Below are positions 7,007 through 41,390 of a DNA stretch of 64,000 nt, in pieces. Source of the stretch: Aporhodopirellula aestuarii. Lineage in GTDB: Bacteria; Planctomycetota; Planctomycetia; Pirellulales; Pirellulaceae. Below the pieces are notes generated by a model. It made no database searches. It was not told the origin of the DNA and saw nothing but the letters and a program-made list of their open reading frames with translations. A program made the position numbers and the translations under genes. The stretch covers positions 186,001 through 250,000 of the forward strand of contig NZ_JAMQBK010000031.1 in assembly GCF_023701485.1 (NCBI RefSeq). Reading direction: 5' to 3'. How positions within the stretch are numbered: the stretch's first letter is position 1; the number at the start of each line of letters is the position of its first letter.

Positions 7007-7373
7007 CGTTCACGTTTTTCCCGGTGGCAAGTCACGTCGCCGGAATGCTTGATTGAATTCGCACCCACAGTTTGGAGTTAGCCCCGGTTGATCGAATGGA
7101 GCTTCAAGATTGAACGAGTCACTCATAACCCAAAGCAAGAGCTTTGACGTTGCGTGTCATGACTTCACCCTCCCGCGCGCGGGAGGGTCGGACGCGGTAG
7201 CGGCCGGGGAGGGCTCTCTCCATGCATTAGGGCCCGACTCTCTCGGAGGAAGATCAAAGGATCACGAATTATTCCTTACACGAGCTACGAGCTACCGAAC
7301 CACCACGCCGCCAACGGCGAACCGGCTTGCGTGCTAATCGATTCCCGCGACTTGCTTAAAGAACAGGACACCC
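7007..7373. other. Intergenic region with palindromic element
   Basis: There are 367 bases without a recognised gene. The notable content is the palindrome at 7167-7188 and the GC-rich stretch after it (to about 7240) with repeated GGGAGGG and CTCTCTC motifs. A plus-strand open frame from 7110 runs through the palindrome and shows no protein-like character. Confidence 0.45.
7167..7188. repeat. Perfect 22-bp palindrome, REP-like
   Basis: The left arm ACCCTCCCGCG is followed directly by its exact reverse complement CGCGGGAGGGT. A further GGGGAGGG occurs about 30 bases downstream. The high GC, intergenic position and hairpin potential fit a REP-type interspersed element or a strong RNA hairpin. 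It is not followed by a T run, so it is not a canonical terminator. Confidence 0.6.
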
Positions 7374-23897: not shown

Positions 23898-24815
23898 ATG
23901 GCGCGAGTCCCATTGTCATCGGCAATCACTCGGTTTTTGAGATACATGGCGACCGAACGCAACGCGTCGGAGCTGACGATCAAAGCCTACCGGGAAGATT
24001 TGTTCGGGTTTGCGCAGTGGCTCGAAGCTGGCCCGTTTGCGGGCACCACGCTCGATGCCCTCGATCCGTCACACCTGCGTCAGTTTCAAGCGGCGTTGCA
24101 GCAAGCTGACTACGCCAAGAGCACGATCTCCCGGAAGCTCGCGTCGCTGCGCAGTTTTTTCAAGTTCGCGATTCGCGAAGGGTCCGCAAAAACCAACCCC
24201 GCCAAACCACTCCGCAACCCGCGGCGAAACCGCAAACTACCGCTCGTTCTTTCCAACGAAGAGATCGGGCGTCTGCTGACGACCCCGCCGGCGCATGATC
24301 CGGCCGGTTTGCGAGATCGGGCGATTTTGGAAACGATGTACTCGTCGGGTCTCCGGGTCAGTGAGCTGGTTGCCCTCCGAGACGGTGACCTCGACTTTAG
24401 CCAAGGCATTGCGCGGGTACGAGGTAAGGGACGCAAAGAACGGCTCAGCCCACTTGGTTCCTACGCGATCGCCGCGATTCGGGCTTATGCGGCCCGCCGC
24501 AATCGTTCGGCCGAAGCTGAAAAACTCGGCCAAGCGGCGCCGGTCTTTGTAAACCGATTCGGCAATATTTTGACCACCCGCAGCGTCGGACGAATGCTCG
24601 ACAAATACATCGCCGACGCGGAACTCGACTCTCGGGTCAGCCCCCACACGCTGCGACACTCCTTCGCCACCCACCTTCTCGATCGGGGCGCCGACATTCG
24701 CAGCGTGCAGGAATTGCTCGGTCACAAATCATTGACCACCACTCAGATTTACACCCACGTTAGCGCGGCGAATCTGCGAACGATTTATGAGAAGGCTCAC
24801 CCTCGGGCTCAATAG
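23898..24815 (+). CDS. xerC: Tyrosine recombinase XerC
   Basis: A 305-residue site-specific recombinase. The N-terminal SAM-like core-binding domain (ITRFLRYMATERNASELTIKA) is followed by the catalytic domain with all active residues: Arg153 (SSGLRVSEL), Lys177 (VRGKGRKER), His250 and Arg253 (SPHTLRHSFATH), His276 (ELLGHKSL) and nucleophile Tyr285 (TTTQIYTHV). The C-terminal AHPRA matches XerC rather than XerD. It resolves chromosome dimers at dif with a partner recombinase. Its 3' end overlaps the convergent SulP gene by 56 bases. Confidence 0.9.
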   Translation: MARVPLSSAITRFLRYMATERNASELTIKAYREDLFGFAQWLEAGPFAGTTLDALDPSHLRQFQAALQQADYAKSTISRKLASLRSFFKFAIREGSAKTNPAKPLRNPRRNRKLPLVLSNEEIGRLLTTPPAHDPAGLRDRAILETMYSSGLRVSELVALRDGDLDFSQGIARVRGKGRKERLSPLGSYAIAAIRAYAARRNRSAEAEKLGQAAPVFVNRFGNILTTRSVGRMLDKYIADAELDSRVSPHTLRHSFATHLLDRGADIRSVQELLGHKSLTTTQIYTHVSAANLRTIYEKAHPRAQ

Positions 24816-27051
24816 TCGACGTTCCGAAGAAATCGACAACTCCCGTTTTGACATCGTATAACGCGCCGATCACTTTGACTCGTCCTTCGCCGACGGCATT
24901 GCGGATCACCTGACTGCGGCGCGTGATTGCCTCTGCGGTGTGAATCACATTGAGTCTGGCGACATTGTCCACAAACGTCTCGAGGTCTTCCTCAGCCAAA
25001 TCATCGAGCGGCCGTGGCGGCAGGTCCTTGACGCTCGGGGCGATCTCGTCCACGATCGATTGCAAGTGTTCACAACCGGTCACGGACATCGCATCCAATT
25101 TTCCGGCGACGAGTTTGACCGAGGAAGTCACAGCGCCGCAGCGGGTGTGCCCCATCACCACGACCAACTTCACCCCAGCAACCCCAACGGCATATTCAAG
25201 ACTGCCGAGCGATTTGGTGCCGATGACGTTGCCAGCAACACGGACGCTGAAGATGTCGCCCACACCGAGGTCAAAAACCAACTCCGTCGGGACCCGCGAA
25301 TCAATGCAGCTGAGGATCGCGGCTAACGGGTTTTGGCCGATCGCCGTGGCGTTCACTTGCCGGCCCAGATCACGGTTCAATCGTGTTCCAGCGACGAAGC
25401 GTTTATTGCCTTCCTCCAAAATCCGAATGACCTGATCGGCGACCACCTGGTCCTGCAACTCTCGCGTGGAGTAGTCGGCAAACTGCACATCATCATTGAG
25501 CCGGTACTTCCGTTTGAACCCGATCAGGTTCACCAGCACCTTCCGGGCGGGAGCGACATTGTCCTTGTAGTCTCGAATCAAACTCAGAACATCGGGATCG
25601 ATGTAGTCCGAGTCACTGGCGTCGATCGTCATCCGGCTGCCCGGTTTCGCTTCATCGAGAATCCGTTCGATCGCCGCCCGATTGAGAAAACTAACTTGAT
25701 TTGCCAATTCGACATGGGTCACGTCGCCCGCCAAGTGGGTCTCGATAACACGGCGAATCGGACGACGCAGGTTACTGTTAAGAATAAACAGAACCGCCAC
25801 ACCCAACCCGATCAAAATCCCGATCAACAGGTCGGTGAAGACGATCGCCAGCACGGTGATGATGAACGGAATGAACTGATAGCGTCCTTCGTCCCACATC
25901 TGTTTGAATAGAGACGGGCTAGCGAGTTTGAATCCGGTCACCAACAGGATCGCCGCCAGAGCCGACAGGGGAATCATGTTCATGTACGTCGGCAAAATCG
26001 CGACGCTGAGCAGCAACAACACGCCATGGAAGATCGCTGAGACCTTTGTCTTCGCGCCCGAGTTAACGTTGACACTGCTGCGTACGATGACCGACGTCAC
26101 GGGCAAACCGCCGATCAAGCCGCAAACCATGTTGCCACAACCCTGAGCAATCAATTCACGACTGGGCGGAGAACTTCGTTTTTCGAGATCGATCTTATCG
26201 ACCGCTTCCAGGTTCAACAGCGTCTCAAGGGATGCCACGACGGCGATCGTGATCGCGCCGATGTAGATGGCCGGGTTCACCAGCTGCGTGAAGTCCGGCA
26301 GACGCAAAAAACCGACGAATTCTGAAACACTGCTGGCGATCGGGATCTGCACGAGATGGCTCTCGCCGATCAACCACTTCGCCCCCATCCGACTAAAAAG
26401 GACATTTAGCAGGACGCCCAGCAGGACGACGAGCAACGGCGCCGGAACAATCGACTTCTTTAGCTTCGGTATCCGATCCCAAACCGCAAGAAAAATGATC
26501 GATGTGATGCCGATCACCATCGCGCCGATGTGGATGTCGCCGGCGATCATGAGGAACAGCTCTGTAAACGTGTTCTCGCTGTCGGGCTGGATGAACGACA
26601 TCTCGCCCTCCGGATCCGAGTCGTGACCAAAAACGTGCGGCAGCTGTTTCAAGATCAGAATCACGCCGATCGCGACCAACAAACCTTTGATCACACTCGA
26701 TGGAAAGAACGCCGAAAGGGCACCCCCTTTGGCAATACCGAACCCGACTTGAATCATGCCCCCGATGAAGACGGCGAGCAAAAACGCTTCGAACGAGCCC
26801 AATCCGGCAATTTGAGCGGCGACAATCGCGGTCAAACCGGCGGCGGGTCCACTGACACTGGTGTGAGAGCCACTGATCGCGGCGACCACGATCCCGCCAA
26901 CGATTCCGGAGACTAATCCCGAAAACAAATTGGCGCCGGAAGCCAACGCGATGCCGAGACAGAGCGGCAACGCGACCAAGAAAACCACCGTCCCGGCGAC
27001 TAAGTCGGGAAGAAGGGTAGAGGATTTAGGTGAAATAGTTTGGGAAGACAT
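24760..27051 (-). CDS. SulP anion transporter fused to beta-carbonic anhydrase
   Basis: A 763-residue three-part protein. Residues about 12-430 are a SulP/SLC26 membrane domain (VAGTVVFLVALPLCLGIALA, SGPAAGLTAIVAAQI, GGLPVTSVIVRSSVNVNSGA). Residues about 440-515 form a STAS domain (MTIDASDSDYIDPDVLSLI). The C-terminal part (about 535-745) is a beta-carbonic anhydrase with zinc ligands Cys582, His635 and Cys638 (CIDSR, MGHTRCG) and the Asp584/Arg586 pair, all intact. The fusion points to bicarbonate or another anion being moved and hydrated/dehydrated at the membrane. It overlaps the 3' end of xerC. Confidence 0.93.
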   Translation of the reverse strand: MSSQTISPKSSTLLPDLVAGTVVFLVALPLCLGIALASGANLFSGLVSGIVGGIVVAAISGSHTSVSGPAAGLTAIVAAQIAGLGSFEAFLLAVFIGGMIQVGFGIAKGGALSAFFPSSVIKGLLVAIGVILILKQLPHVFGHDSDPEGEMSFIQPDSENTFTELFLMIAGDIHIGAMVIGITSIIFLAVWDRIPKLKKSIVPAPLLVVLLGVLLNVLFSRMGAKWLIGESHLVQIPIASSVSEFVGFLRLPDFTQLVNPAIYIGAITIAVVASLETLLNLEAVDKIDLEKRSSPPSRELIAQGCGNMVCGLIGGLPVTSVIVRSSVNVNSGAKTKVSAIFHGVLLLLSVAILPTYMNMIPLSALAAILLVTGFKLASPSLFKQMWDEGRYQFIPFIITVLAIVFTDLLIGILIGLGVAVLFILNSNLRRPIRRVIETHLAGDVTHVELANQVSFLNRAAIERILDEAKPGSRMTIDASDSDYIDPDVLSLIRDYKDNVAPARKVLVNLIGFKRKYRLNDDVQFADYSTRELQDQVVADQVIRILEEGNKRFVAGTRLNRDLGRQVNATAIGQNPLAAILSCIDSRVPTELVFDLGVGDIFSVRVAGNVIGTKSLGSLEYAVGVAGVKLVVVMGHTRCGAVTSSVKLVAGKLDAMSVTGCEHLQSIVDEIAPSVKDLPPRPLDDLAEEDLETFVDNVARLNVIHTAEAITRRSQVIRNAVGEGRVKVIGALYDVKTGVVDFFGTSTIEPEGEPSHKSFADSPR

Positions 27052-30140: not shown

Positions 30141-30884
30141 CTAATCGAGCGGGGTGATCGGTTGATTGGCGTGAACAGATGCCGAGGAGGTTGAGCGTGT
30201 CATCAGTCCGTCTTCCATTTCATAAATCGTGTCGAAAACATCAAGGGCACGATGGTCGTGCGTCACGACGATCACGCCGGCTCCCTGTTCATGAGCAACC
30301 TTGGCAAACAGTTCCATCACTTGACGTCCACGCTGTCCATCGAGCGCCGCGGTGGGTTCGTCCGCCAAAATCACGCTGGGCCGATTCGCCAACGCCCGCG
30401 CAACAGCGACACGTTGTTGTTGCCCGCCTGAAAGCATGGATGGGAAATTGCCGGCGCGATCGGCGACACCGAGGTAGTCCAACAATTCCATCGCACGGTG
30501 GCGAGAGGCCCGCGCGGATTCGCCGCTGAGCTGCATCGCGATTTGAACGTTCTCGATCGCTGACAAAAACGGTATCAGGTTGGATTTTTGAAAGATGAAT
30601 CCAAGATGTTTGCGGCGGAAGGACCGCAGATTCGTGTACGCGGCATCCCCATCTTGAACGAGTTTCCCACCGATGGTGATTCGACCCGACGTGGGCGTAT
30701 TGATCAGCCCCACGGCGGTGAGGAACGTTGATTTTCCGCTGCCGCTAGGTCCGAGCAACGCGACCACTTCGCCCCGGGCGACTCGCATCGAAGCGTTTTT
30801 CATCGCGACGACTTCGGTGTTGCCACTGCCGTATATTTTCGTTAGCCCCTCCGCTTCGATAGCCGCTGGTTCTGCCTGACTCAT
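30141..30884 (-). CDS. ABC exporter ATPase (DevA/LolD/MacB type)
   Basis: A 247-residue ATPase; ATG 30884 is chosen because it overlaps the upstream permease stop by ATGA. Walker A is GPSGSGKST, the signature [15 protein letters not shown], Walker [13 protein letters not shown], and the H-loop VTHDHR. This set, together with the [12 protein letters not shown] stretch, marks the MacB/LolD/DevA subfamily that powers FtsX-like permeases. It is the last gene of the five-gene overlapping chain that begins at 34915 and works with the permease and adaptor directly upstream. Confidence 0.93.
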
Positions 30885-32092
30885 GCCAGCGCCTCGTTTG
30901 GGGAGATCTTCATCGCTTTCCAAATTCCCAGCAGGCTCGACAGCACCGAGATCGCCAACACAATGCCCGCCAACTGCAGTAAGTCGGCATTGGCCAAAAT
31001 CACTCGACGCGGAAACAGCGGAAACAACTGTTGACCAATCAGATAGGCGATACCGAATCCGACAAAACCGAGGATCAATGCCTGCTGCATGATCATGCCC
31101 AACACCACGGTGTTCGGCGCTCCGATCAGTTTCAACAATGCGATCGAGTGGATTTTATCGAGCGTCAATGTGTACAAGATCAAGGCCATGATGATTGCCG
31201 CAATCACGGTGAGCAGTACGCGAAACAACCCGATCTGTCGCCGCACTCGTTCGACACTGCCTTTGAGCAACAGTTCACGTTGACCATCGGCGGTGTAGAC
31301 CGACACGTCACCCCAGCCAGAAATCACGTCCGCGACTCGTTCGGGGTCCGCGCCCGGCGAGAGCGTCAACATCACGGCACTGATCTGCGGTTCGGCGACC
31401 GCGGGCAATTCGCTCGCTGGCCGCATCGCGTTCTCGAGCACCGACGGTTGCTGGATCGCCAGCTCAAACTGCTCGCCACGTGATCGGCGAGCGGCCCGTT
31501 CCAAACGTGTGGCTTCGCCCGGCGTGTCAAACTGAATCGCCAATGCATCGCTAACGCTAAAAAATGCCAACCCGTCGCCGCTCGCACTGATCATGTTCTC
31601 GGTCAGGCCCACGACCGTATACGTTTCTTTGCCGAGTTTGATTCGCTCACCAAGGGCAAGTCCGAGTTGTTTGTCGGCGATCATTTCAAAATGAACTTGA
31701 CCGAGCGTTCGGCCAGCCGACAACGGCAACCACTCACCCTTATCGGTCGGCCAACTCAATCCCAACACCGCGATGCGAAGCGGTTTCCCGTCACGTTGGC
31801 GTTGAATCGTGTGATAGACAAATTCACGTGCCTGACTGACGCCGGGCACCGCCGCGGCACGGTAAACCAGATTCGATGAAACGCGAGACAACTCCGCAAA
31901 CGGCCCGCGTGTGTTTCGTTGCACGATCCAGAGGTCGGCATCGACACGTTCGATCAACAACGTTGCGTCTTCGACCACACCGCGATAGATGCCTCCCATG
32001 CCCATCACGACCATTAACAACATGCCGATGCCCACCGCAGTCAGTGCGAATCGTCCGAAGTTGTGACGGATGTCTTTGGTGGCAAGGTTCAT
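30881..32092 (-). CDS. ABC exporter permease (DevC type, FtsX/MacB domain)
   Basis: A 403-residue permease. The first helix (FALTAVGIGMLLMVVMGMGG) is followed by a large periplasmic MacB-PCD-like domain (about 45-270, with VGLTENMISASGDGLAFFS) and three C-terminal helices (VLLTVIAAIIMALILYTLTL, ALILGFVGFGIAYLIG, LAGIVLAISVLSSLLGI) of the FtsX family. The layout equals DevC of the DevBCA exporter. ATGA overlaps join it to the adaptor gene upstream and the ATPase gene downstream. The complex probably moves a lipid or small molecule outward from the inner membrane. Confidence 0.9.
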   Translation of the reverse strand: MNLATKDIRHNFGRFALTAVGIGMLLMVVMGMGGIYRGVVEDATLLIERVDADLWIVQRNTRGPFAELSRVSSNLVYRAAAVPGVSQAREFVYHTIQRQRDGKPLRIAVLGLSWPTDKGEWLPLSAGRTLGQVHFEMIADKQLGLALGERIKLGKETYTVVGLTENMISASGDGLAFFSVSDALAIQFDTPGEATRLERAARRSRGEQFELAIQQPSVLENAMRPASELPAVAEPQISAVMLTLSPGADPERVADVISGWGDVSVYTADGQRELLLKGSVERVRRQIGLFRVLLTVIAAIIMALILYTLTLDKIHSIALLKLIGAPNTVVLGMIMQQALILGFVGFGIAYLIGQQLFPLFPRRVILANADLLQLAGIVLAISVLSSLLGIWKAMKISPNEALA

Positions 32093-33249
32093 CGCGAAGC
32101 GTCCGTACGAATCGCGATCCTGCGTCCTGGCGACAGCCCCGTCGCCGGATTCACAGCCGAGACAATCACGTCACCCTCTTCTACACCTTGCAACACTTCC
32201 ACGGTGTCGCGACCGCGAACCCCAAGATTCAACTCATGCCATGCGGCGGTCCCGCCGTCGTTCGTGAAAACACCGAAACGCCCGTCTCGATGGACGAGTA
32301 ATTTTTCTGGCAGGACGAGTGTGTCAGACCGCTGAGCGACGTCGATGAACGTCTCCGCTCGCTGACCCACAGCCCAATTCTCGGGTAGCTCCAACACTCT
32401 CACGTCGACAATGAATTCGCGGGTTTCTCGGTCGGCTTCTCTTCCCAGCCGAGCGACCTTGCCGGGATAAGATTGCTCGGGTTCGCTGCGGAAGACGACG
32501 CGAGCGGTTTGTTCGGTTTTCAACTTGGACATGGCTGTTTCGTCCACCCACGCGCTGATCCATAATTCATCGAGCGAGATCAACGTCATGATGGAACTGC
32601 CGGGCACAACGACGTCGCCGGGTTCACGATTTCGCCGGACGATCAATCCATCGAAGGGGGCGTGGATTTCCGTGTCACGCAGGCGAGTGCTGTGATACTG
32701 CGCGGTCTTTTCGGCGGCGATGTATTCCTTTTGTCCTTCGGCGATTCCCGCCTCCGCGCGGGCAATATCCGCCTGAGCGACGGAGAGCGCCTCGGTCGCT
32801 TTGTCGGCATCGTCACGACTGGCGGCGTTCTTTTCAACGAGCGACTGAATCCGATCGTAACTCCGACGGGCCTGCTGATAGACGGCCTCGGCACGTTCTT
32901 TGTCTATCTTGAGGCGGGTGACCCCTGCGGCCGCCGCATCCACATTCGCCTGGGCGATGGCCACCTGTTGTGTTAACTCTTGATCGTCGAGTCGGACGAG
33001 CAATTCGCCCGCCGTCACACGCTCGCCTTGATCGACAAAGACCTCAACGATCCGTCCCGAGATTTTAGGACTGACCGTCGCCTCCACGCGTGCCTCTAAC
33101 GTCCCCGTCCCCATCACTTCCGCCACGATCGCGTCACGTTCGATCGTGTACGCCGCGACCGGTATCGGCGAGAACTTCAATTGATAAACCACTCCTCCGA
33201 CGACAACCGCGAAGAGGGCGAGTTTAAGTAGTTGCCATTTGATTTTCAT
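32089..33249 (-). CDS. HlyD/DevB-type periplasmic adaptor
   Basis: A 386-residue membrane-fusion protein; the start is placed at ATG 33249 (MKIKWQLLKLALFAVVVGG), overlapping the upstream stop by ATGA. A single N-terminal helix anchors it. VMGTGTLEARVEATVSPKIS and VDQGERVTAGELLVRLD form the first half-lipoyl motif, a coiled-coil hairpin spans about 85-185, and IHAPFDGLIVRRNREPGDVV is the second half-lipoyl motif. Beta-barrel and membrane-proximal domains follow. It bridges the DevC-like permease to the outer membrane. Confidence 0.92.
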   Translation of the reverse strand: MKIKWQLLKLALFAVVVGGVVYQLKFSPIPVAAYTIERDAIVAEVMGTGTLEARVEATVSPKISGRIVEVFVDQGERVTAGELLVRLDDQELTQQVAIAQANVDAAAAGVTRLKIDKERAEAVYQQARRSYDRIQSLVEKNAASRDDADKATEALSVAQADIARAEAGIAEGQKEYIAAEKTAQYHSTRLRDTEIHAPFDGLIVRRNREPGDVVVPGSSIMTLISLDELWISAWVDETAMSKLKTEQTARVVFRSEPEQSYPGKVARLGREADRETREFIVDVRVLELPENWAVGQRAETFIDVAQRSDTLVLPEKLLVHRDGRFGVFTNDGGTAAWHELNLGVRGRDTVEVLQGVEEGDVIVSAVNPATGLSPGRRIAIRTDASR

Positions 33250-34376
33250 GCGACTTGGTATTCCTCGACAAATCGTTTGTCGATCCATGTTTTTAGGTGC
33301 CAACACCAACGTGAGTGAACACTCAAAGGCCCATACTCAAGGAATGCTTTCCCATCGCCGGTATTAAGCAGTTTCAAAAAATCCGACTGAGGCTGGAATG
33401 ACTCCAGCGGACCGCCCGCGAAGAAAGCTCGTAGGTTGTGCCACAGTACGGGTGACTGACGTACCGCATAGACACCTGCCTTGGGTGACGGGGATTCGAT
33501 CACGGTTCCTGAATCACCCACCGCAAATACCCGAGGGTCGGTCAGAGATTGCAGGGTAGGGGAGGTCGCGATGAATCCACGGTCATCTGTCTGCAGGCCG
33601 AGCTTGCCAAGCACGGGCGGTGCCGCGGCACCGGTGGCCCAGATCACGCAATCGGTTTGATGTGTTTGACCGTCCTCTGTCGTGATGCTGTCCTGACCAA
33701 CGTCGGTGACCCGTTTTCCAGGTCGAACGCGGATCCCTCTTGAACTCAGTAGCGTTTCGAGACGGCGGATACTGCGGTCGCTCATCCCATCCGCCACGCG
33801 GTCACTGCTGGTAAAGATCTCGATTGACAGGTCGGCGGCCTTCTTTTGATCGCGTTTGGCAAATTGTTGAAGCAAACAAAACGCGATCTCAACGCTCGCG
33901 ACGCCGCCCCCAACAACCGACACTCTCAACGGCGAATTCGGTTGAGCGGCGCCATCCAAGTGCTGCTCTAAACGGGTCAGGAATGTTTGCATTGGTTTGA
34001 TCGGCACCATCAATGGCGAGTCGGCATGATCTTGCCAACCGGCCGGCATGGAGCCAACACCAACGGACAGCGCATTAAAAGAAATCGGTTCGTGATCTGA
34101 AAAGTGAATCATTCCCGATTCCAAATCCAACCGCTCGGTATCGGCCAAAATCAACTTCGCCCCCGCTCGCTCGGCAAGAGACTCCAAATGGATACGCATC
34201 TCGTCGTCTTGGAATTGCCGACCCAATGTTCCCGGCAGCATGCCCGAATAAGTTGCCGTGGGAAACCGACTGATACACGTCAACGAGCAATCGGCAATCG
34301 GCTCACTCGCCCACTTCTTCACAACGTGAGCGTTCGTGTGTCCGATCCCCAGCAGAATGACGTTTTGAGTAGCCAC
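33246..34376 (-). CDS. FAD-dependent pyridine nucleotide oxidoreductase, SelD-associated type (TIGR03169-like)
   Basis: A 376-residue flavoprotein beginning at GTG 34376 with NVILLGIGHTNAHVVKKW, a GxGxxN variant of the FAD-binding motif, followed by TATYSGMLPGTLGR, RAGAKLILADTERLDL and SVGVGSMP. This pattern matches the oxidoreductases found fused to or beside selenophosphate synthase (TIGR03169), distant relatives of NDH-2 and sulfide:quinone reductase. CVIWATGAAAPP and VFAVGDSGTV give the second nucleotide-binding and FAD-ribityl sites. No SelD is in the window. Here it lies between an exported rhodanese and an ABC exporter, joined to both by overlapping stop/start codons, so a sulfur role is equally possible. 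Confidence 0.85.
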   Translation of the reverse strand: MATQNVILLGIGHTNAHVVKKWASEPIADCSLTCISRFPTATYSGMLPGTLGRQFQDDEMRIHLESLAERAGAKLILADTERLDLESGMIHFSDHEPISFNALSVGVGSMPAGWQDHADSPLMVPIKPMQTFLTRLEQHLDGAAQPNSPLRVSVVGGGVASVEIAFCLLQQFAKRDQKKAADLSIEIFTSSDRVADGMSDRSIRRLETLLSSRGIRVRPGKRVTDVGQDSITTEDGQTHQTDCVIWATGAAAPPVLGKLGLQTDDRGFIATSPTLQSLTDPRVFAVGDSGTVIESPSPKAGVYAVRQSPVLWHNLRAFFAGGPLESFQPQSDFLKLLNTGDGKAFLEYGPLSVHSRWCWHLKTWIDKRFVEEYQVA

Positions 34377-34915
34377 TACCGAGTGACCTGTTCGTACTTG
34401 GGTGGAATCTTGTAGCGGTCGCTATAGGTGTGAACGCGATTGGTGAGTTCCCCGTCGAGAGTCACCACGGGCAACCCGGCACCGACCCATTTCAAAATAC
34501 TTCCTTGGTAGTTTTTCACCTTCACGCCTTTGGCAACAAGCTCTTTTGCGTACGCGCCGCTACGGCCGCCGACGGTGCAATAGGGGATGACCAATTTTCC
34601 TCGATACTTCTCCGCATTCTTTTCAAACTCTGCTTTCGTGACGGCACCGGGGATGACCGACACGTTCACTTCGGCCTCCGAGCGAACGTCAACGACAACG
34701 AAGTCAGCTAACGGAACCGGTTTTCCCGCTTCCCTGGCCTTGGCTTCGGACTGCTGCTTCTGCACCAGCATTTTGTGGAGATCGTCAGTGCTGATGGTGT
34801 CGATCTTAGGGCCACCAAAAAAGCCACCGAACTGAGCGGGCGCAGGCGAAACACCCAAAAGAACGGGGACGACAAATGCAAACAGGGCTACCAAACGGAG
34901 TGTCGGATACTTCAT
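34376..34915 (-). CDS. Exported rhodanese-like protein
   Basis: A 179-residue periplasmic protein from ATG 34915. The signal sequence RLVALFAFVVPVLLG ends near APAQ. One rhodanese domain follows: VDVRSEAEVNVSVIPGAV is the substrate-binding entry, and CTVGGRSG is the active-site loop with its catalytic Cys. Rhodaneses carry sulfane sulfur on that Cys. The stop TAG shares one base with the GTG start of the FAD oxidoreductase, so the two should be made together. It starts the five-gene overlapping chain. Confidence 0.88.
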   Translation of the reverse strand: MKYPTLRLVALFAFVVPVLLGVSPAPAQFGGFFGGPKIDTISTDDLHKMLVQKQQSEAKAREAGKPVPLADFVVVDVRSEAEVNVSVIPGAVTKAEFEKNAEKYRGKLVIPYCTVGGRSGAYAKELVAKGVKVKNYQGSILKWVGAGLPVVTLDGELTNRVHTYSDRYKIPPKYEQVTR

Positions 34916-34978
34916 ACAATTCGTTCTCAATGGGGTGTTAACTGTCGAACGGGAAACTTATTCGAAAAAGATCGAAAA

Positions 34979-35572
34979 CTACTCGGATTGAACCCAAAAC
35001 CAACCACGCAGCTCGCCTTCGCTAAAACCGGTTGCTTGGTCGTCTGGGTAAAGCCTCGCGAGTTGGTCCTGGATGATGGGTGCGATTTGGTCGGACGGTC
35101 CATGACACATCAGGCACTGCACCTGCAACTTGATGGGCAGGAGTGCGGCCACGTGCTGGTTAGACAGCGTGACGAAGGTCGGTGTCTGCGTCTTCGCATC
35201 CGTCAATGGTTTCGCCCAGGCGGGCGGCGTGTTGTTCGGATTGCGAAGCCGGACTCCGACGCGGCCGATCTTCACATCGAATTCCTCTCCGACTTCCGTG
35301 GCGATCTTCGGAGCTTCTTGATTACAGACCTGGATCGCCGCAGCGGGACCTTGAGCCATCGCCTCCATCAATCGCCCCGACAATCGCTGCTGTAGTGCAT
35401 CTTTGGCCGCAATGAGCGTTTGCTGTTGTTCAGCATTGGGCTCACTACCATCGACAATCGTCACCGACACCTGCTCGGTTGCCGCTGGTGTCGGCGTGGA
35501 TGGCTTGGGCGAGCAACCGGCGAACACGACCGTTGCCAACGACAACGTTGTTACGATGCGAATGCGTTTCAT
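34979..35572 (-). CDS. Tll0287-like (DUF3365) haem-binding lipoprotein
   Basis: A 197-residue lipoprotein from ATG 35572 (MKRIRIVTTLSLATVVFAGC, lipobox LxxVFAGC). The soluble domain resembles the Tll0287-like/DUF3365 group: AIQVCNQEAPKIATEV, then RVGVRLRNPNNTPPAWA with the conserved R(N)P-N pairs, and a single covalent haem-binding site CLMCHG near residue 165. The location should be periplasmic, tethered to a membrane. It probably acts as a redox sensor or electron carrier. In this operon it could accept electrons from sulfur oxidation, which is inference from context. Confidence 0.85.
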   Translation of the reverse strand: MKRIRIVTTLSLATVVFAGCSPKPSTPTPAATEQVSVTIVDGSEPNAEQQQTLIAAKDALQQRLSGRLMEAMAQGPAAAIQVCNQEAPKIATEVGEEFDVKIGRVGVRLRNPNNTPPAWAKPLTDAKTQTPTFVTLSNQHVAALLPIKLQVQCLMCHGPSDQIAPIIQDQLARLYPDDQATGFSEGELRGWFWVQSE

Positions 35573-35664
35573 GTCATCGGTCCTGAATGAGAAGACGGGG
35601 CGGCTAAAAATTCGATTCGGGAGAGCAGTCAAGAGACGAGCATACCCCCGATGCGTCACAGGCA

Positions 35665-36771
35665 TCACTTCAATAATGGCACGTACGCATATCCGTCGGC
35701 CTGCAAATTCACCACGGCGGTGAGCGCCGAAACCGCCGTATCGATGAAAACGGCGGTGTCAGAAGTCTGATATCCGGCGGCGTCCAAGCTCTGACCACAA
35801 ACATACAGGCCCACCCCCGCTTCATGCAGTTGGTGCAGAAGATCGAGGTTCGGGTTGTCTGTGGTTTGGAATTTTTCCGCATAAGCATCCGAGTTGAGAA
35901 CCGTAAGAGTCGCTCCCCCGTGAAGGACGACGGCAATCTCGACTTGGGCCGGCTTCGCACCGCCGCCGGAATAGATACTGAAGTACTTCGCGACCTGCTC
36001 GATCGCAGGGTTCACTTTGTCAGGATCGCTACCACGAGTGATATCGACTAGAAATTTTGTGCCATCGCGGGGTTGCAGCACCGCATTGGGCAACCGAACC
36101 ACCGTTCCGTTGCCAATCTTTGCCGGATGTTTGTCCGCCACCTTCGTGGCGGCTTCGGCTCCCGGTACCGCGTGGTTCTTCATCGCCTCGGCGAAACCGC
36201 GCTCGACAAACCCCGAGACCGCCTTGGCGTGGGCTTTGATCAATTGGGCCACGTACGGATCGGCCGACGTCTCGGTCACGCGAACGCCTTTTTCCGTATC
36301 CTCGTGTACCATCTTGATCTGATCGGTGTGTTGAAAGATTTCCGCGAACAGAGGGTCACGCATGCGAATCGGATTCGTTTCTTCGATTCGATACTCCATC
36401 CATTCGACGTGCTCCTTGATCTTGTCCGCTACGTCGGGGTCATCCGATTCCGTCAGCGTCTCGACGCCGTCGGACAACTCCTTGACGCTGCGTTGGATCT
36501 TTTCGTGATTGGCGAGGAGGTATTGAAAAACGTCGCGATCTTCATCGTGACGATCATCGTGCGAATGCCCGTCGCCGCTGTCTTGCAACTGACGCCCCAT
36601 CGCCTGACCGGCCCCCATGCCCCGCCCACCACCGAAGCCGGGACCTCCGCCGAATCCTCGGCCACCACCGAACCCCGGGCCGCCTTGAGCCCGAGCCTCC
36701 GGCAACGGCATCGAAACCAAACAGGCTAGAAACAACAGAAATCCGAACACGGGTAAGGTCGAGCGATTCAT
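35665..36771 (-). CDS. Exported DsrE-domain protein with Gly-rich N-terminus
   Basis: A 368-residue exported protein. The signal sequence (LPVFGFLLFLACLVSMPL, cut near ARAQ) is followed by a low-complexity Gly/Phe/Arg segment (about 30-58) and a His/Asp cluster (SHDDRHDEDRD). A mostly helical part (about 75-205) comes next, and a C-terminal DsrE/DsrF-like domain (about 235-368), with VEIAVVLHGGATLTVLN, the LHEAGVGLYVCGQSLDAAGY Cys loop and VVNLQADGYAYVPLL. DsrE-family proteins carry sulfur on that Cys. Export of a DsrE domain is unusual and fits a periplasmic sulfane-sulfur role. Confidence 0.82.
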   Translation of the reverse strand: MNRSTLPVFGFLLFLACLVSMPLPEARAQGGPGFGGGRGFGGGPGFGGGRGMGAGQAMGRQLQDSGDGHSHDDRHDEDRDVFQYLLANHEKIQRSVKELSDGVETLTESDDPDVADKIKEHVEWMEYRIEETNPIRMRDPLFAEIFQHTDQIKMVHEDTEKGVRVTETSADPYVAQLIKAHAKAVSGFVERGFAEAMKNHAVPGAEAATKVADKHPAKIGNGTVVRLPNAVLQPRDGTKFLVDITRGSDPDKVNPAIEQVAKYFSIYSGGGAKPAQVEIAVVLHGGATLTVLNSDAYAEKFQTTDNPNLDLLHQLHEAGVGLYVCGQSLDAAGYQTSDTAVFIDTAVSALTAVVNLQADGYAYVPLLK

Positions 36772-36785
36772 GGGGGGTCCTTTGT

Positions 36786-37265
36786 CTAGGCGGATGGTGT
36801 GGTTGGCATGTGTTTGGCTATGTAGGCAGGTTCACCCATGCGTTGAAGCAAATCGAGTTGCAACTCGAGCCAACCCATGTGCTGTTCTTCATCCATGGCG
36901 ATGCGTTCGAAAAGTTGCCGCGAACCGATGTCACTATCGGCAGCGGCTTCTACGGAGGCCTTTGTGTAGAAGGCGAGTGCTTCCTGCTCGTCTGCTAGAT
37001 CCAGTTCGAACATTTCCTTCAGTGAAGTGGCTTGGATCGGCGTCTTGGCGAGTTTGAGTTCCGGAGTCCCTTTGAGGAAAAGGATTCGCACCATGAACTC
37101 TTCGGAATGCCCCAACTCTTCTTGCATTTCTTCACGCATTTGATTTGCCAACAGCCCCATTCCCCAATCGTCCAGAACACCCGCGTGCAATTGATATTGG
37201 TGGGTTGCGGACAATTCCATGGACAGCGCGGTTTGCAGATTTTCAATCGTTTTGGTCGAACTCAT
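36786..37265 (-). CDS. Bacterioferritin-like ferritin without the haem methionine
   Basis: A 159-residue four-helix ferritin of the bacterioferritin group. Diiron ligands are in place: Glu17, Glu50 and His53 (EELGHSEE), Glu93, Glu126/127 and His129 (DEEQHM). By comparison with E. coli Bfr, the haem-ligating Met52 position is Leu51 here (E-L-G-H instead of E-M-K-H), so haem binding is doubtful. It would oxidise Fe(II) and store or detoxify iron. Its gene lies 15 bases upstream of the DsrE gene and 79 bases downstream of the persulfide dioxygenase gene. Confidence 0.88.
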   Translation of the reverse strand: MSSTKTIENLQTALSMELSATHQYQLHAGVLDDWGMGLLANQMREEMQEELGHSEEFMVRILFLKGTPELKLAKTPIQATSLKEMFELDLADEQEALAFYTKASVEAAADSDIGSRQLFERIAMDEEQHMGWLELQLDLLQRMGEPAYIAKHMPTTPSA

Positions 37266-37343: not shown

Positions 37344-38774
37344 TTAGACGATTTCGCTCATTTCAGGGACCGCGTTGGCGCTCGGCAAACCTGCCGCCTT
37401 CCAAGCCAGATAACCGCCCGACAGGTTGATAACGTCTTTGAAGCCCGCCGCTTGCAGCACGCTCGCCCCGATTGCCGATCGTGCGCCGCTGCGGCATTGC
37501 ACCACAAGTGTTTGATTGCGAGGTAGATCGGCGAGGTGATCCGGCAGACGTCCCAGGAAACGATGATCCGCCTGCCCGATGTGTCCCTCGTTCCATTCAT
37601 CGTTCGAGCGAACATCAATCAACTTCACCTCACCTGATTCAATCGCGAAATCCAGTTCGCTCGGATTCACGCTGGCGTAGTCCTCCGTGGCCATCCCCGA
37701 GTCGAGAACGTCGCCGACAGAGAACCCTCCGACAATTTCTTCCACGCCAATCTTGTGCAAAACCCGAGCGGCCTCTTCCAATTGTCCCGGTTCGCAAATC
37801 AGGTAGGTCGGCCTTTCGTAATCGACCAACCATCCCGCCCAACCGGCCAACATTCCCAGCGGAATATTGATCGTTCCCGGAACATGCTTGGCCGCAAACT
37901 GTGACGACGGTCTCAGGTCGATCACCGTTCCCCTTTTCAAAGCGTCACGCAGTTGAAAGCGATCAAGCATTTGATGGTGATGGTCGGCACCGAGAGCGAT
38001 CGGGCCTTCTTTGTTAACCCGTTTCATTACCGCAAAGTACTTCGGTGCTTCGGGCTGATCGGCCAGAATGTATTTCACGAATTCATCTTCATCGGTGAAC
38101 TGCAATGCCGGGTTAAAGAGTTTTTCATACCCGACCGTGGACGATGGGATGGCGCCGAGTCCCTTGCCACAGGCGCTGCCGGCGCCGTGGGCGGGCCAGA
38201 CTTGTAAGTAATCCGGCATCGATTTGAATCGTTCGGCCGAGCGGAACAAATCGCGTGCCCCTGGTTCCGCGGTGCCCTTGATTTGGGCGGCTTCCTCTAA
38301 CAAATCAGGGCGTCCGATTGAGCCGACAAATACGAAATCGCCCGTAAAGATTCCCATCGGCTTGTCCGCGCCTCCTCCCTGATCGGTGAGCACAAACGAG
38401 ATGCTCTCGGGCGTGTGTCCGGGTGTGTGCATCACCTCAAATTTGATATTGCCGAGCATGAATTGGTCACCGTCATGCAAACGTTGATGGTCGTAGGCAT
38501 CCAAATACTGATACTTCCATTCGTTCGGCCCTTCGTCGGAAACATACAATTTGGCGTCCACACGGTCGGCCAACTCACGGGCACCCGAAACGTAGTCCGC
38601 GTGAATATGCGTTTCCGCGACCCCGACAATTTTCATGCCCTCACGCTCTGCCATCTCGAGGTATTGGTCGATATCCCGACCGGGATCAACCACCAAGGCA
38701 ACGTTCGCCCGCTGACAACCGACCAAGTAGGAGGCGTGAGCGAGTTTTTGGTCATAGAAATACTTGAGCAACAT
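37344..38774 (-). CDS. CstB-like persulfide dioxygenase-rhodanese
   Basis: A 476-residue multidomain sulfur enzyme. The metallo-beta-lactamase domain (1 to about 240) has the persulfide-dioxygenase iron ligands His56 (THIHADY), His116 and Asp146. A first rhodanese-like domain (about 280-365, loop LICEPGQ) and a C-terminal rhodanese with active Cys427 (CRSGARS) follow. Further cysteines at 20 and 202 fit the three-cysteine layout I recall for staphylococcal CstB. It should turn persulfide plus O2 into sulfite and/or thiosulfate. The usual DH of lactamase motifs is DY here, as in CstB-type enzymes. Confidence 0.9.
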   Translation of the reverse strand: MLLKYFYDQKLAHASYLVGCQRANVALVVDPGRDIDQYLEMAEREGMKIVGVAETHIHADYVSGARELADRVDAKLYVSDEGPNEWKYQYLDAYDHQRLHDGDQFMLGNIKFEVMHTPGHTPESISFVLTDQGGGADKPMGIFTGDFVFVGSIGRPDLLEEAAQIKGTAEPGARDLFRSAERFKSMPDYLQVWPAHGAGSACGKGLGAIPSSTVGYEKLFNPALQFTDEDEFVKYILADQPEAPKYFAVMKRVNKEGPIALGADHHHQMLDRFQLRDALKRGTVIDLRPSSQFAAKHVPGTINIPLGMLAGWAGWLVDYERPTYLICEPGQLEEAARVLHKIGVEEIVGGFSVGDVLDSGMATEDYASVNPSELDFAIESGEVKLIDVRSNDEWNEGHIGQADHRFLGRLPDHLADLPRNQTLVVQCRSGARSAIGASVLQAAGFKDVINLSGGYLAWKAAGLPSANAVPEMSEIV

Positions 38775-38805: not shown

Positions 38806-39630
38806 CTACGAGACCGTCGATCGGAAGATTACGAAGATTGCGACCAACACGACCGCGATCGAAAATGTTTTTTGAAGTGTTGGGCCTTTCAAACGTTGGG
38901 CCACCATGCCGCCCAACCACATCCCGACAAATCCGCCCAACAGGAATTGCCACGCTATTTCCATCGGCAATACGTTGCCGCCGGCGAGGTGTGATGTCAC
39001 GCCGCTGATGCTGACTAACACGATCACAAATAGTGATGTCCCGACCGCTTGGTGAATCGCCATCCCGCTGAATAAAACCAATGCCGGCACAATCACAAAA
39101 CCGCCACCGACGCCGAACATGCCTGACAGCACACCCGTCATCAGACCCACGATCACCAACAACCGGGCACACTTCGACGTCAGCCGCAACTTGCCATCAA
39201 GGTCACGCTGACAGACGCTCCTGTCACGTTCGTCGATCGATTCGGTAGGACACACCCCGCTGGCAATCTTCGGGTTCCTCGCTTTCGCCCACATTCGATA
39301 GGCCACCACCAACATCAATATCGCGAACAGCATCAATAACGCCTGCTCGGGGATCAATGTTGAGAGATAGGTGCCCAGAGGAGCACCCATCATGCCCGCG
39401 ATTGCAAACAGCAGCCCGGTCCGCAATTCGACTTCGCCACGCATCAATCGAGGGATCGTTCCGAAGAACGCAGTGCCGCCAACCGAAGCCAAGGAGATTC
39501 CGACCGCTTCGCGTGGCGCCACTGACAACCCGTAGACCAACAACGGAACGGCAAACACACCTCCACCGCCACCGGTCAATCCGAGCGCGAACCCGACGAT
39601 GCAGCCGAAGAGAATTGCTAGACCGAACAT
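38806..39630 (-). CDS. TSUP family transporter (sulfite/organosulfonate exporter)
   Basis: A 274-residue membrane protein; ATG 39630 is used because sequence before it lacks membrane character. It has two repeats with the TauE/SafE signature: GFALGLTGGGGGVFAVPLLV and GVLSGMFGVGGGFVIVPALVLF. About eight helices are predicted, with a hydrophilic loop (about 125-160) containing two Cys. TSUP proteins export sulfite or similar anions. The start lies inside the 3' end of the upstream rhodanese gene (13-base overlap), and the CstB-like gene follows after 31 bases. Confidence 0.88.
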   Translation of the reverse strand: MFGLAILFGCIVGFALGLTGGGGGVFAVPLLVYGLSVAPREAVGISLASVGGTAFFGTIPRLMRGEVELRTGLLFAIAGMMGAPLGTYLSTLIPEQALLMLFAILMLVVAYRMWAKARNPKIASGVCPTESIDERDRSVCQRDLDGKLRLTSKCARLLVIVGLMTGVLSGMFGVGGGFVIVPALVLFSGMAIHQAVGTSLFVIVLVSISGVTSHLAGGNVLPMEIAWQFLLGGFVGMWLGGMVAQRLKGPTLQKTFSIAVVLVAIFVIFRSTVS

Positions 39631-40163
39631 GAGCCTCCACCGACGCACTGATTCCACGGCATCTTTGCGATCAACGATGCCATCGGACAAAGCCCGGTGA
39701 AACCAGCAAACATCAGACCAGCGCCGACAAATCCGGAAAGCCCGACGAAGTATGGGTGAACGAAGTAGCCCAGTACGACGCCGAGCAAGACCAAGAACCC
39801 AGCAGTAATCTGTACTTGCTGCATTAGCGGTAGCGACTTTTTGCCACGCACGACGGGCAAGCCGGCTTGCTCCCACGCCAACGTGCCGCCTTCGACGTTG
39901 ACGACATTGTCAAAGCCGGCCGCCGCGAATTTCTCACACGCCTGAGCCGAGCGATTCCCGCTGCGACAGATCACATACAACGGCTCGCCGGCCGAACCGT
40001 TTCTCGCCGACATGATCGCTTGCGGATCGAGCGACTCCAGCGGAACGGAACGCGCACATTCGGCGTGAATCGCACGGAACTCTGTGGGCATCCGCACATC
40101 GATCAAATCGAAGTGTCCATCGGGGTGTTGGTCGCTCAGACGTTTTACTTCAATCGTTTGCAT
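39618..40163 (-). CDS. Rhodanese with DUF2892-like membrane tail
   Basis: A 181-residue protein from ATG 40163. The N-terminal rhodanese domain has the loop CRSGNRS with catalytic Cys and the ending GGTLAWEQAGLPV. The C-terminal part has two transmembrane helices (TAGFLVLLGVVLGYFVHPYF and FVGAGLMFAGFTGLCPMASLI) and the GLCPMA..L(I/L)xxMPWN pattern of the DUF2892 inner-membrane unit. It anchors sulfane-sulfur transfer at the membrane. It is the first gene after the promoter/operator at 40340-40367. Confidence 0.9.
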   Translation of the reverse strand: MQTIEVKRLSDQHPDGHFDLIDVRMPTEFRAIHAECARSVPLESLDPQAIMSARNGSAGEPLYVICRSGNRSAQACEKFAAAGFDNVVNVEGGTLAWEQAGLPVVRGKKSLPLMQQVQITAGFLVLLGVVLGYFVHPYFVGLSGFVGAGLMFAGFTGLCPMASLIAKMPWNQCVGGGSCSV

Positions 40164-40339
40164 CTTAATTCTCCTCATGCAATCAACGCCCGCCGCACAC
40201 GCAAAACAGCGTCACATCGCGACTAGACGATATATTTTGGTCAAAAATACGACGGGTCTGAAACAATCCGATTCCGCCGATAGCTGCGTAACGTGGTACC
40301 GAGTCCCAAACGGACCGAGTTACCCGCGACGCTGCAATC

Positions 40340-40367
40340 ATCATATCGTAAGGTTACGATATGTCAA
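40340..40367 (-). promoter_or_regulatory. Near-consensus sigma-70-type promoter of the sulfur operon
   Basis: On the minus strand TTGACA (40367-40362) is followed by a 16-base spacer and TATGAT (40345-40340): a perfect -35 box and a five-of-six -10 box. A start site near 40333 would give a leader of about 170 bases before the rhodanese gene at 40163. It is the strongest promoter I can see in the window. Confidence 0.72.
40342..40363. promoter_or_regulatory. Perfect 10-bp inverted-repeat operator
   Basis: CATATCGTAA, two bases (GG), then TTACGATATG. The arms are exact reverse complements, and the site covers the whole spacer plus the ends of both promoter boxes, so a bound protein would block polymerase. 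The ATATCGTAA-type arm is what winged-helix dimers of the ArsR kind bind. A lone half-site ACGATAT occurs at 40227-40233 inside the leader. No regulator gene lies beside it. Confidence 0.72.
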
Positions 40368-40604
40368 TACAATTAAAAAGCTGAGATTGTGCAAATGCGT
40401 CGAAATCTCACGCCCCAGATCTCAAATTTGCTTGCGCGGGCAGCCGGCGGCGGACGGCATGGGGCAGGACAGGGCGGCTCAAACCTGAAAAGGACAGATC
40501 CACCCGGCGAGGCCGCGGGTGCGGGAACGCAGCGTGGGGCAGGGCAGTGTGAGGAAAGAAAGGCTGCGGAGGTGCGCCAGAGTGGCTCGGGGGCAAACAG
40601 CAGC

Positions 40605-41390
40605 TTATTTCATCACGCCCGTGAACAGACTCGAGCCGATACGGACCATCGTCGCACCTTCGGCGATCGCCGCCTCGTAATCGCCACTCATGCCCATCGA
40701 TAACTCAGGCCATTCAAGCTTCGTCAGCAGTCGCATCTGATCGCGAAGTTCTCGCAATCTCGCGAATTGCGGGCGAGCCTGTTGCGGGTCGGTGCCCCAG
40801 CCCGCCATCGCCATCAAACCGATCAGTCGCACGCCGGCATCGGACGCATTCGCGTCTCCCATCCGCAAAACATGTCGCTCCACCGCGCCGGCCAGTTCAT
40901 CGGGGGGCAATCCCGTCTTGGCGGCCTCACCGCTGACGTTGACCTCGATCAACACGTCGACACCGATCGATTGCCGGACAGCTTCGCGGTGGATTTCTTC
41001 GAGCACTCGTTCGCTGTCGACCGAATGAATCGTCGGACAGGTGGACAATAACCGGCGGACTTTATTGCGTTGCAGGTGACCGATTTGATGCCAGCGAATT
41101 TCCCCGGCCACATCGCCTCGATTCGTCGCAAACCAATCGGCTTTTTGCATCAACACTTGCGGCCGATTCTCGCCGAGATCACGGCACCCCGCATCGATTA
41201 ACCAACTCGTGATTTCGGCGTCAACATACTTCGAGACGCCCACCACACGCACTTCGGCAGGATCGCGGTTGGAATGGGAGGCGGCGTCGGCGACGTCTGC
41301 GCACACCCGCTTCCAATTGTCCGAAATTCGCAAACGTGCCTCTTCGACCGAACAAGCGATTTGGGTGGAATCGATAGGATCGGCTGCCAT
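40605..41390 (-). CDS. YggS/PLPBP family pyridoxal-phosphate homeostasis protein
   Basis: A 261-residue PLP-binding protein. Strand 1 carries the PLP lysine in VVGVSKYVDAEIT, then CRDLGENRPQVLMQKA, IRWHQIGHLQRNK, LIEVNVSGEAAKTGL, and GLMAMAGWGTDP; the end SMGMSGDYEAAIAEGATMVRIGSSLFG-like (here SLFTG) carries the phosphate-binding loop. The family keeps free PLP levels in balance and has no known enzyme reaction. The N-terminal 15 residues are a weakly conserved extension. It lies on the same strand as the sulfur operon but upstream of that operon's promoter. Confidence 0.92.
   Translation of the reverse strand: MAADPIDSTQIACSVEEARLRISDNWKRVCADVADAASHSNRDPAEVRVVGVSKYVDAEITSWLIDAGCRDLGENRPQVLMQKADWFATNRGDVAGEIRWHQIGHLQRNKVRRLLSTCPTIHSVDSERVLEEIHREAVRQSIGVDVLIEVNVSGEAAKTGLPPDELAGAVERHVLRMGDANASDAGVRLIGLMAMAGWGTDPQQARPQFARLRELRDQMRLLTKLEWPELSMGMSGDYEAAIAEGATMVRIGSSLFTGVMK

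Follow-up and report, generated by a model that had tools for sequence, protein, structure and literature searches.

A candidate trans-encoded ArsR-type repressor for an orphan sulfur operon of Aporhodopirellula aestuarii

The sulfur operon and its promoter

The window, that is, the whole 64,000-nucleotide stretch of the genome of the marine planctomycete Aporhodopirellula aestuarii analyzed here, contains an apparent run of 11 genes on the minus strand that is opened by a gene for a YgaP-like rhodanese. The genes and the regulatory features 5' of them are as follows, where "persulfide dioxygenase" and "sulfite exporter" are to be read as names of families.

40362..40367, minus strand: -35 hexamer TTGACA (promoter scan)
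40342..40363, unstranded: operator O1, perfect 10-bp inverted repeat with a 2-bp centre (in this genome, copies with at most 3 mismatches lie only 5' of arsR and hlyD)
40340..40345, minus strand: -10 hexamer TATGAT, spacer of 16 bp (promoter scan)
40243..40247, minus strand: T5 run; on the coding strand, O2 follows 9 nt after its end (leader comparison)
40214..40233, unstranded: O2, operator-like dyad with 2 mismatches of 14, about 50 bp 5' of ygaP (corresponding block in relatives)
39618..40163, minus strand: YgaP-like rhodanese with membrane anchor (PF00581, PF11127)
38806..39630, minus strand: TauE/SafE family protein, sulfite exporter family (PF01925)
37344..38774, minus strand: protein with metallo-beta-lactamase-fold and rhodanese domains, putatively persulfide dioxygenase-like (PF00753, PF00581)
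36786..37265, minus strand: bacterioferritin-like protein (PF00210; TIGR00754 below cut-off)
35665..36771, minus strand: DsrE/F-like protein (PF02635)
34979..35668, minus strand: Tll0287-like protein (PF11845)
34376..34930, minus strand: rhodanese-domain protein (PF00581)
33246..34376, minus strand: FAD oxidoreductase of the pyridine nucleotide-disulfide oxidoreductase family (PF07992; TIGR03169 over cut-off)
32089..33255, minus strand: HlyD/MacA-type adaptor (TIGR01730 over cut-off)
30881..32092, minus strand: MacB/FtsX-type permease (PF12704, PF02687)
30141..30923, minus strand: ABC ATPase, last gene of the presumed operon (read from the sequence; gene order kept in the related genome G087)

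In G087 the identical run stands in identical order behind the same site, and in both genomes a YggS gene lies upstream. Elsewhere in the window, positions 24760-27051 encode a 763-aa protein that, by eye, combines a SulP-type transporter with a carbonic-anhydrase-like C-terminal part.

Read on the minus strand, positions 40367-40340 (TTGACATATCGTAACCTTACGATATGAT) form a near-consensus sigma-70 promoter overlaid by the 22-bp dyad O1 (CATATCGTAA-GG-TTACGATATG, 40342-40363, with 10-bp arms and a 2-bp centre), which lies about 180 bp 5' of the rhodanese gene. The first-pass annotation had described a perfect 10-bp inverted repeat within a TTGACA/TATGAT promoter, and both elements are present, with a 16-bp spacer; its statement that the repeat exactly fills this spacer needs correction, since the dyad also extends into both hexamers, by 2 bases at -35 and by 4 bases at -10. 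The layout fits simple repression, in which a bound dimer would block the polymerase, as that annotation had proposed. TTGACA-16-TATGAT was the sole promoter-like match of our scan of positions 40100-40640, where shuffles lead one to expect 0.3. The arms alone prove little, because perfectly paired arms of 10 bp are not unusual in the window: a search allowing gaps of 0 to 8 listed three rows at two places, and the same search on five Markov controls gave 1, 3, 1, 0, and 0. The window's only other perfect inverted arms of at least 10 bp with such a gap are at 7167-7188 (CCCTCCCGCG arms). O1 is nonetheless a real operator, a conclusion that we draw from its promoter setting, its rarity in the genome, and its conservation.

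Occurrence of the site in the genome and across the family

The first-pass annotation had proposed a genome-wide scan and named recurrence of the site at many unrelated promoters as an outcome that would refute its reading; for close matches, the scan did not show this. In the 9.07-Mb genome, only three sites differ from the 20 fixed bases at 3 or fewer positions (reversed control, 0), and all three have the 16-bp-spacer geometry. The first is the promoter of the sulfur operon. The second ends 62 bp before the start of a gene for a 108-aa ArsR protein on contig 119 (G000:C119:89032-89355), which is followed by a second YgaP-like rhodanese gene and then by a gene for a CoA-disulfide-reductase-like protein fused to a rhodanese domain (PF07992 and PF00581 matched; TIGR03385 at 455.9 bits, below its cut-off of 578.8). 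The third lies 5' of an hlyD-RND gene set, with a methyltransferase gene and cydAB about 0.7 kb beyond. Because of this gap after the RND gene, control of cydAB from the third site is uncertain; the order through cydAB is nonetheless kept in the related genomes G087 and G088. Sulfide is reported to induce cydAB in other bacteria (PMC7315123), which, by analogy, would fit such control here without showing it.

A looser 14-base core with up to 2 mismatches was found at 15 places in the genome against 4 for the control, so that weaker targets cannot be told from chance. One of these 15 places, the near-identical dyad CTATCGTCAATCGACGATAG (G000:C78:16441-16460; loci L016 and L024), lies 5' of another ArsR match, C78:16617, and may indicate cross-talk; the C78:16617 gene adjoins ArsA-, ArsM-, and Acr3-like genes, as named from their translations.

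G087 and G088, whose ArsR matches show 98% and 90% identity, respectively, carry each of the three promoters in front of the counterpart genes. Within the genus, each of the 13 genomes has a match somewhere with 3 or fewer mismatches; the search gave 35 places, of which 30 were made into annotated loci, 7 of these without any query gene. The pattern search covered the window's family, with 80 genomes sampled from a larger group. Of these, 55 have the ArsR (E up to 1e-15); 39 of the 55 contain sites with no more than 2 mismatches, versus 1 of the 25 ArsR-negative ones (Fisher, 1.4e-8; counted by eye, own genome included).

The site was also sought upstream of ArsR genes that had been identified from protein similarity without use of the pattern (61 genes out of 64 matches). 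In 43 of these 61 cases, the gene is preceded by a match that deviates at no more than 3 of 19 positions, a count given without shuffles. For the best 80 of 417 relatives, a set that shares genomes with the first, the corresponding number is 70 of 80, and 400 shuffles never fell below 6. The matches often lie 15 to 30 bp before the gene. Since 18 of the 61 and 10 of the 80 genes are without such a match, and 16 of the 55 ArsR-positive genomes are without a site of at most 2 mismatches, the site drifts or is missing in some relatives.

The association of the site with sulfur genes, which the first-pass annotation had seen at one promoter, extends beyond the window, in that most genes behind the sites are sulfur genes: among 15 sites outside the own genome that have at most 2 mismatches and do not precede arsR, 12 precede sulfur genes (rhodanese, TauE, dioxygenase-like, or DUF1641 plus FAD-oxidoreductase genes), and the remaining 3 are exceptions. 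Loci L110 (3 mismatches), L111 and L112 (2 mismatches), and L291 of G015 (2 mismatches), with no sulfur gene behind them, were taken as chance matches. Two sites of G027 (L106 and L107, 3 mismatches) were left uncounted, as they resemble the sites of a different ArsR; they read TTGC..-ATCGTA/TACGAT-TATNAT, one lies near a cystathionine-lyase-like gene (named from its translation) and a gene for a cysteine-rich ArsR-like protein, and together they perhaps reflect a related regulon of another ArsR.

The contig 119 ArsR as candidate regulator

The first-pass annotation had remarked that no ArsR-type gene lies within the window, and PF01022 and protein searches of the genome likewise found none on the window's entire contig. 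The genome holds five PF01022 matches, among them the contig 119 ArsR, plus one more ArsR-like match from the protein search, and two PF02583 (CsoR/CstR superfamily) genes. With a copy of the site at the contig 119 arsR, and with site and ArsR co-occurring across genomes, an ArsR-type regulator is the best candidate, as suggested by the annotation. We take the contig 119 protein to be that regulator on the basis of site conservation, ArsR co-occurrence, and the sulfur genes behind the sites; going by these genomic data, the missing regulator is most likely this trans-encoded ArsR protein, and it probably senses persulfide.

We put a probability of roughly 0.8 on the following reading as a whole, whose statements on DNA binding, repression, and inducer are inferences. 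The repressor, an ArsR-family dimer with its gene on contig 119, would act in trans on O1 and its copies. In its reduced form it would occupy the DNA between and over the -35 and -10 hexamers and so exclude RNA polymerase, shutting three promoters: that of arsR, ygaP, and the CoA-disulfide-reductase-like/rhodanese gene, that of the sulfur operon of the window, and that of hlyD-RND, with the methyltransferase gene and cydAB behind it. When sulfide-derived persulfide or polysulfide accumulates, the repressor's cysteines would be modified and the repressor would leave the DNA, allowing expression of the rhodaneses, the dioxygenase, the exporter, the reductase, and the efflux genes. The leader also holds a second dyad, O2, a weaker version of the site, whose probable effect is to add to repression or to impede elongation. 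This reading names a likely regulator for an orphan sulfur operon and outlines a compact three-promoter regulon whose operator motif is common to many genomes of the family. Among the papers searched, judged by titles and the openings of abstracts, we found none on sulfur-sensing ArsR proteins of planctomycetes.

The contig 119 protein exceeds the cut-offs of PF01022, PF12840, and NF033788, which places it in the ArsR family, and it also matches the general model HTH_metalloreg. A structure model (pLDDT, 90.9) of L174, a close relative from R. rubra that shares 98% identity in the matched part, superposed on the top-of-list ArsR-type structures with Z scores of 13 to 16, a comparison that re-ranks Foldseek's own hits and thus speaks only for the families among them. 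Four cysteines are conserved: Cys27, Cys57, Cys74, and Cys101 are kept in 61, 60, 60, and 61 of 61 proteins and, in a second set, in 56, 51, 56, and 56 of 56. In the L174 model they are predicted to lie in alpha1, at the end of alpha3, just past alpha4, and in alpha5, respectively.

SqrR from Rhodobacter capsulatus has the same fold (Z, 13.9; rmsd, 2.3 over 93 residues), with residues 16-108 of the L174 model aligned to residues 16-108 of the SqrR chain. If this alignment is gapless, as the equal ranges suggest, Cys41 and Cys107 of SqrR presumably correspond to Gln41 and Leu107 here. Column 41 is Gln in 61 of 61 and 54 of 56 proteins (His in the other 2), and a profile alignment places Cys31 of YgaV at this Gln41; Cys98 of YgaV falls past the aligned stretch and would reach approximately Leu107 if the alignment were extended without gaps. 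No cysteine occupies column 107 in either protein set (61 and 56 proteins); cysteines slightly beyond it occur in 6 of 56 and 2 of 61, and any cysteine within columns 34-46 occurs in 1 of 61. The contig 119 ArsR therefore lacks the alpha2/alpha5 cysteine pair of SqrR, BigR, YgaV, and HlyU, whereas all known ArsR-type persulfide sensors are described, in the excerpt of the survey drawn on here, as one cluster with cysteines in alpha2 and alpha5 (PMC10509353).

The operator differs as well. That of SqrR has been deduced as ATTC-N8-GAAT and is reported to be present at ygaV and not at katG (PMC9774250); the core here is ATCG-N8-CGAT, equal in spacing and different in its half-site. With both sensing cysteines missing and a half-site of ATCG rather than ATTC, the membership in the BigR/SqrR group that the first-pass annotation had favored does not hold. 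The BigR model NF040642 scores 51.7 bits against a cut-off of 155, which no match in the genome passes and which is so narrow that YgaV itself fails it at 59. What the candidate does share with the SqrR/BigR/YgaV/HlyU group is predicted sites upstream of sulfide and persulfide genes, and its targets lead us to think that it probably works like these sensors while standing outside their group on the features compared. The absence of the canonical cysteines offers a clear test of whether persulfide sensing by ArsR proteins evolved more than once.

Among characterized systems, YgaV-YgaP of Escherichia coli is similar in pairing an ArsR-fold repressor with a neighboring YgaP rhodanese gene, and YgaV is reported to bind the sigma recognition region of its own promoter, to respond to sulfide, and to use half-sites 8 bp apart, as here (PMC9774250). 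Unlike in that system, two further promoters bear the site here, with dioxygenase-like, TauE, and efflux genes behind them. The BigR operon of Xylella fastidiosa and Agrobacterium tumefaciens likewise is described as joining an ArsR-fold repressor to rhodanese/dioxygenase and TauE-related transporter genes (PMC5823870), whereas here the regulator gene is separate from the operon and the cysteine pair is missing. RexT, a hydrogen peroxide sensor, shares the ArsR fold and cysteine-based redox sensing, but its reported adjacent Cys40-Cys41 in alpha3, with an operator of ATTCG-N15-CGAAT (PMC8960804), have no counterpart in the contig 119 ArsR, which lacks neighboring cysteines in alpha3.

Alternatively, the four conserved cysteines could bind a metal or metalloid, which would then be the inducer for the same ArsR and operator. 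These cysteines do not match the known persulfide pair, the HTH_metalloreg model is matched, and the targets include efflux genes, all of which would suit a metal sensor. We nevertheless consider it unlikely, since the genes behind the sites are mostly of rhodanese, dioxygenase-like, TauE, and CoA-disulfide-reductase-like types, the CmtR model reaches 45.5 against a cut-off of 150, and a separate ArsR gene pair adjoins the ArsA-, ArsM-, and Acr3-like genes (names again from translations). Moreover, canonical arsenic and metal ArsR proteins are described as carrying a CXC motif in alpha3 (PMC10509353), and inspection of alpha3 (model residues 50-57) found a single Cys57 and no such motif.

Another regulator, either a different ArsR or a CsoR/CstR-family protein, might instead run the operon, the match at the arsR promoter reflecting cross-talk or an older arrangement. 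The genome does offer proteins for this role, in its two PF02583 genes, four further PF01022 genes, and one more ArsR-like match, yet the idea is improbable: close copies of the site stand at three promoters only, including that of the contig 119 arsR itself, presence of the site tracks presence of the contig 119-type ArsR across genomes, and the alpha2/alpha5 cysteine pair is absent, by inspection, from the four other ArsR-type proteins read (three PF01022 matches and a rhodanese fusion; C78:16617 was left out). The fusion, G000:C75:51644-51868 (L013), joins an ArsR-type domain to a C-terminal domain that looks rhodanese-like by eye and has no sensor cysteine pair. That the dyad is a chance repeat, or the promoter strong but without an operator, we regard as negligibly probable, for although perfect arms of 10 bp are no rarity in 64 kb, the spacer with its operator has been kept at corresponding genes and the shuffle test upstream of ArsR genes is independent of the window.

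History of the operon and the second dyad in its leader

In a midpoint-rooted tree of 100 ygaP genes, the window's ygaP and those of G087 and G088 form one clade (support, 0.995) that is nested within ygaP genes immediately preceded by arsR (0.851); L102, a further operon lacking arsR, has a separate nested position. This nesting fits a loss or relocation of arsR from the operon. Of the genes in the tree, 88 of 100 have arsR upstream, a proportion that says nothing on frequency because most loci were fetched through arsR. The window's operon thus looks like a relative of the arsR-ygaP-tauE-dioxygenase operons from which arsR was lost or moved.

The leader contains a further element. What the first-pass annotation had listed as a lone half-site at 40227 turns out to be the right half of an imperfect full dyad, O2 (40214-40233), which is also found in relatives: the corresponding block has 2, 3, and 4 mismatches in G087, G088, and G028, respectively. 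An O2-like dyad (at most 3 mismatches of 14) occurs in 29 of 58 arsR-ygaP intergenic regions versus 2 of 1160 shuffles; 44 regions classed as "ygaP alone" were kept out of this evidence, since O1 falls inside some of them and arsR stands at a greater distance in others. Runs of six or more T's lie within 150 bases downstream of arsR in 70 of 135 regions (28 of 1350 shuffles), and in 60 of these 70 an O2 with at most 4 mismatches follows in the 60 bases past the run (13 of 700 shuffles), the gap between the two being exactly 8 in 41 arsR downstream regions. Among 23 O1 leaders without arsR, which include matching leaders of three related genomes, the composite of T-run and O2 (run of at least 5 T's, gap of 6 to 10, at most 5 mismatches) is present in 9, including the window's (T5, gap of 9) and that of hlyD, versus 0 of 460 shuffles. 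It is absent from the other 14, including the ygaP leader of G088, where the dyad is there and the gap is wider.

The T-run with O2 is thus a recurring, putatively regulatory part. It is tempting to see the run as the intrinsic terminator of arsR, but strong abutting hairpins were found at 21 of 55 runs versus 286 of 1100 shuffles (mean z, -0.52), and as hairpins before the run are barely enriched, it is not simply a terminator. A simple scan flagged a terminator-like hairpin at 40223-40211, where shuffles lead one to expect 0.8, and the structure of the leader RNA (z, -1.45) is not striking. Nor does O2 seem to act as an RNA hairpin, as inspection showed that many right halves read CGACAT, which would create A-C mismatches. 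We also considered that an antisense promoter might lie at O2 or that O2 might act as a roadblock to polymerase; one guess is that ArsR bound at O2 affects elongation.

A broader reading, which we offer tentatively and hold to be less probable than its opposite, is that the family commonly carries a persulfide-sensing ArsR lineage that senses through cysteines other than the alpha2/alpha5 pair and that uses two operators at many targets: one that keeps polymerase off the promoter, and a second that gates elongation or release of RNA polymerase, set at a fixed distance of roughly 8 bp past a T-run, either in the leader or downstream of arsR. If this were true, neither the alternative cysteine set nor the gating second operator would have a precedent among ArsR-type sulfur sensors in the excerpts of the literature consulted. 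In relatives, the T-run and O2 lie behind arsR in, for example, L119, L189, L209, and L240, and a further CGA half-site often follows.
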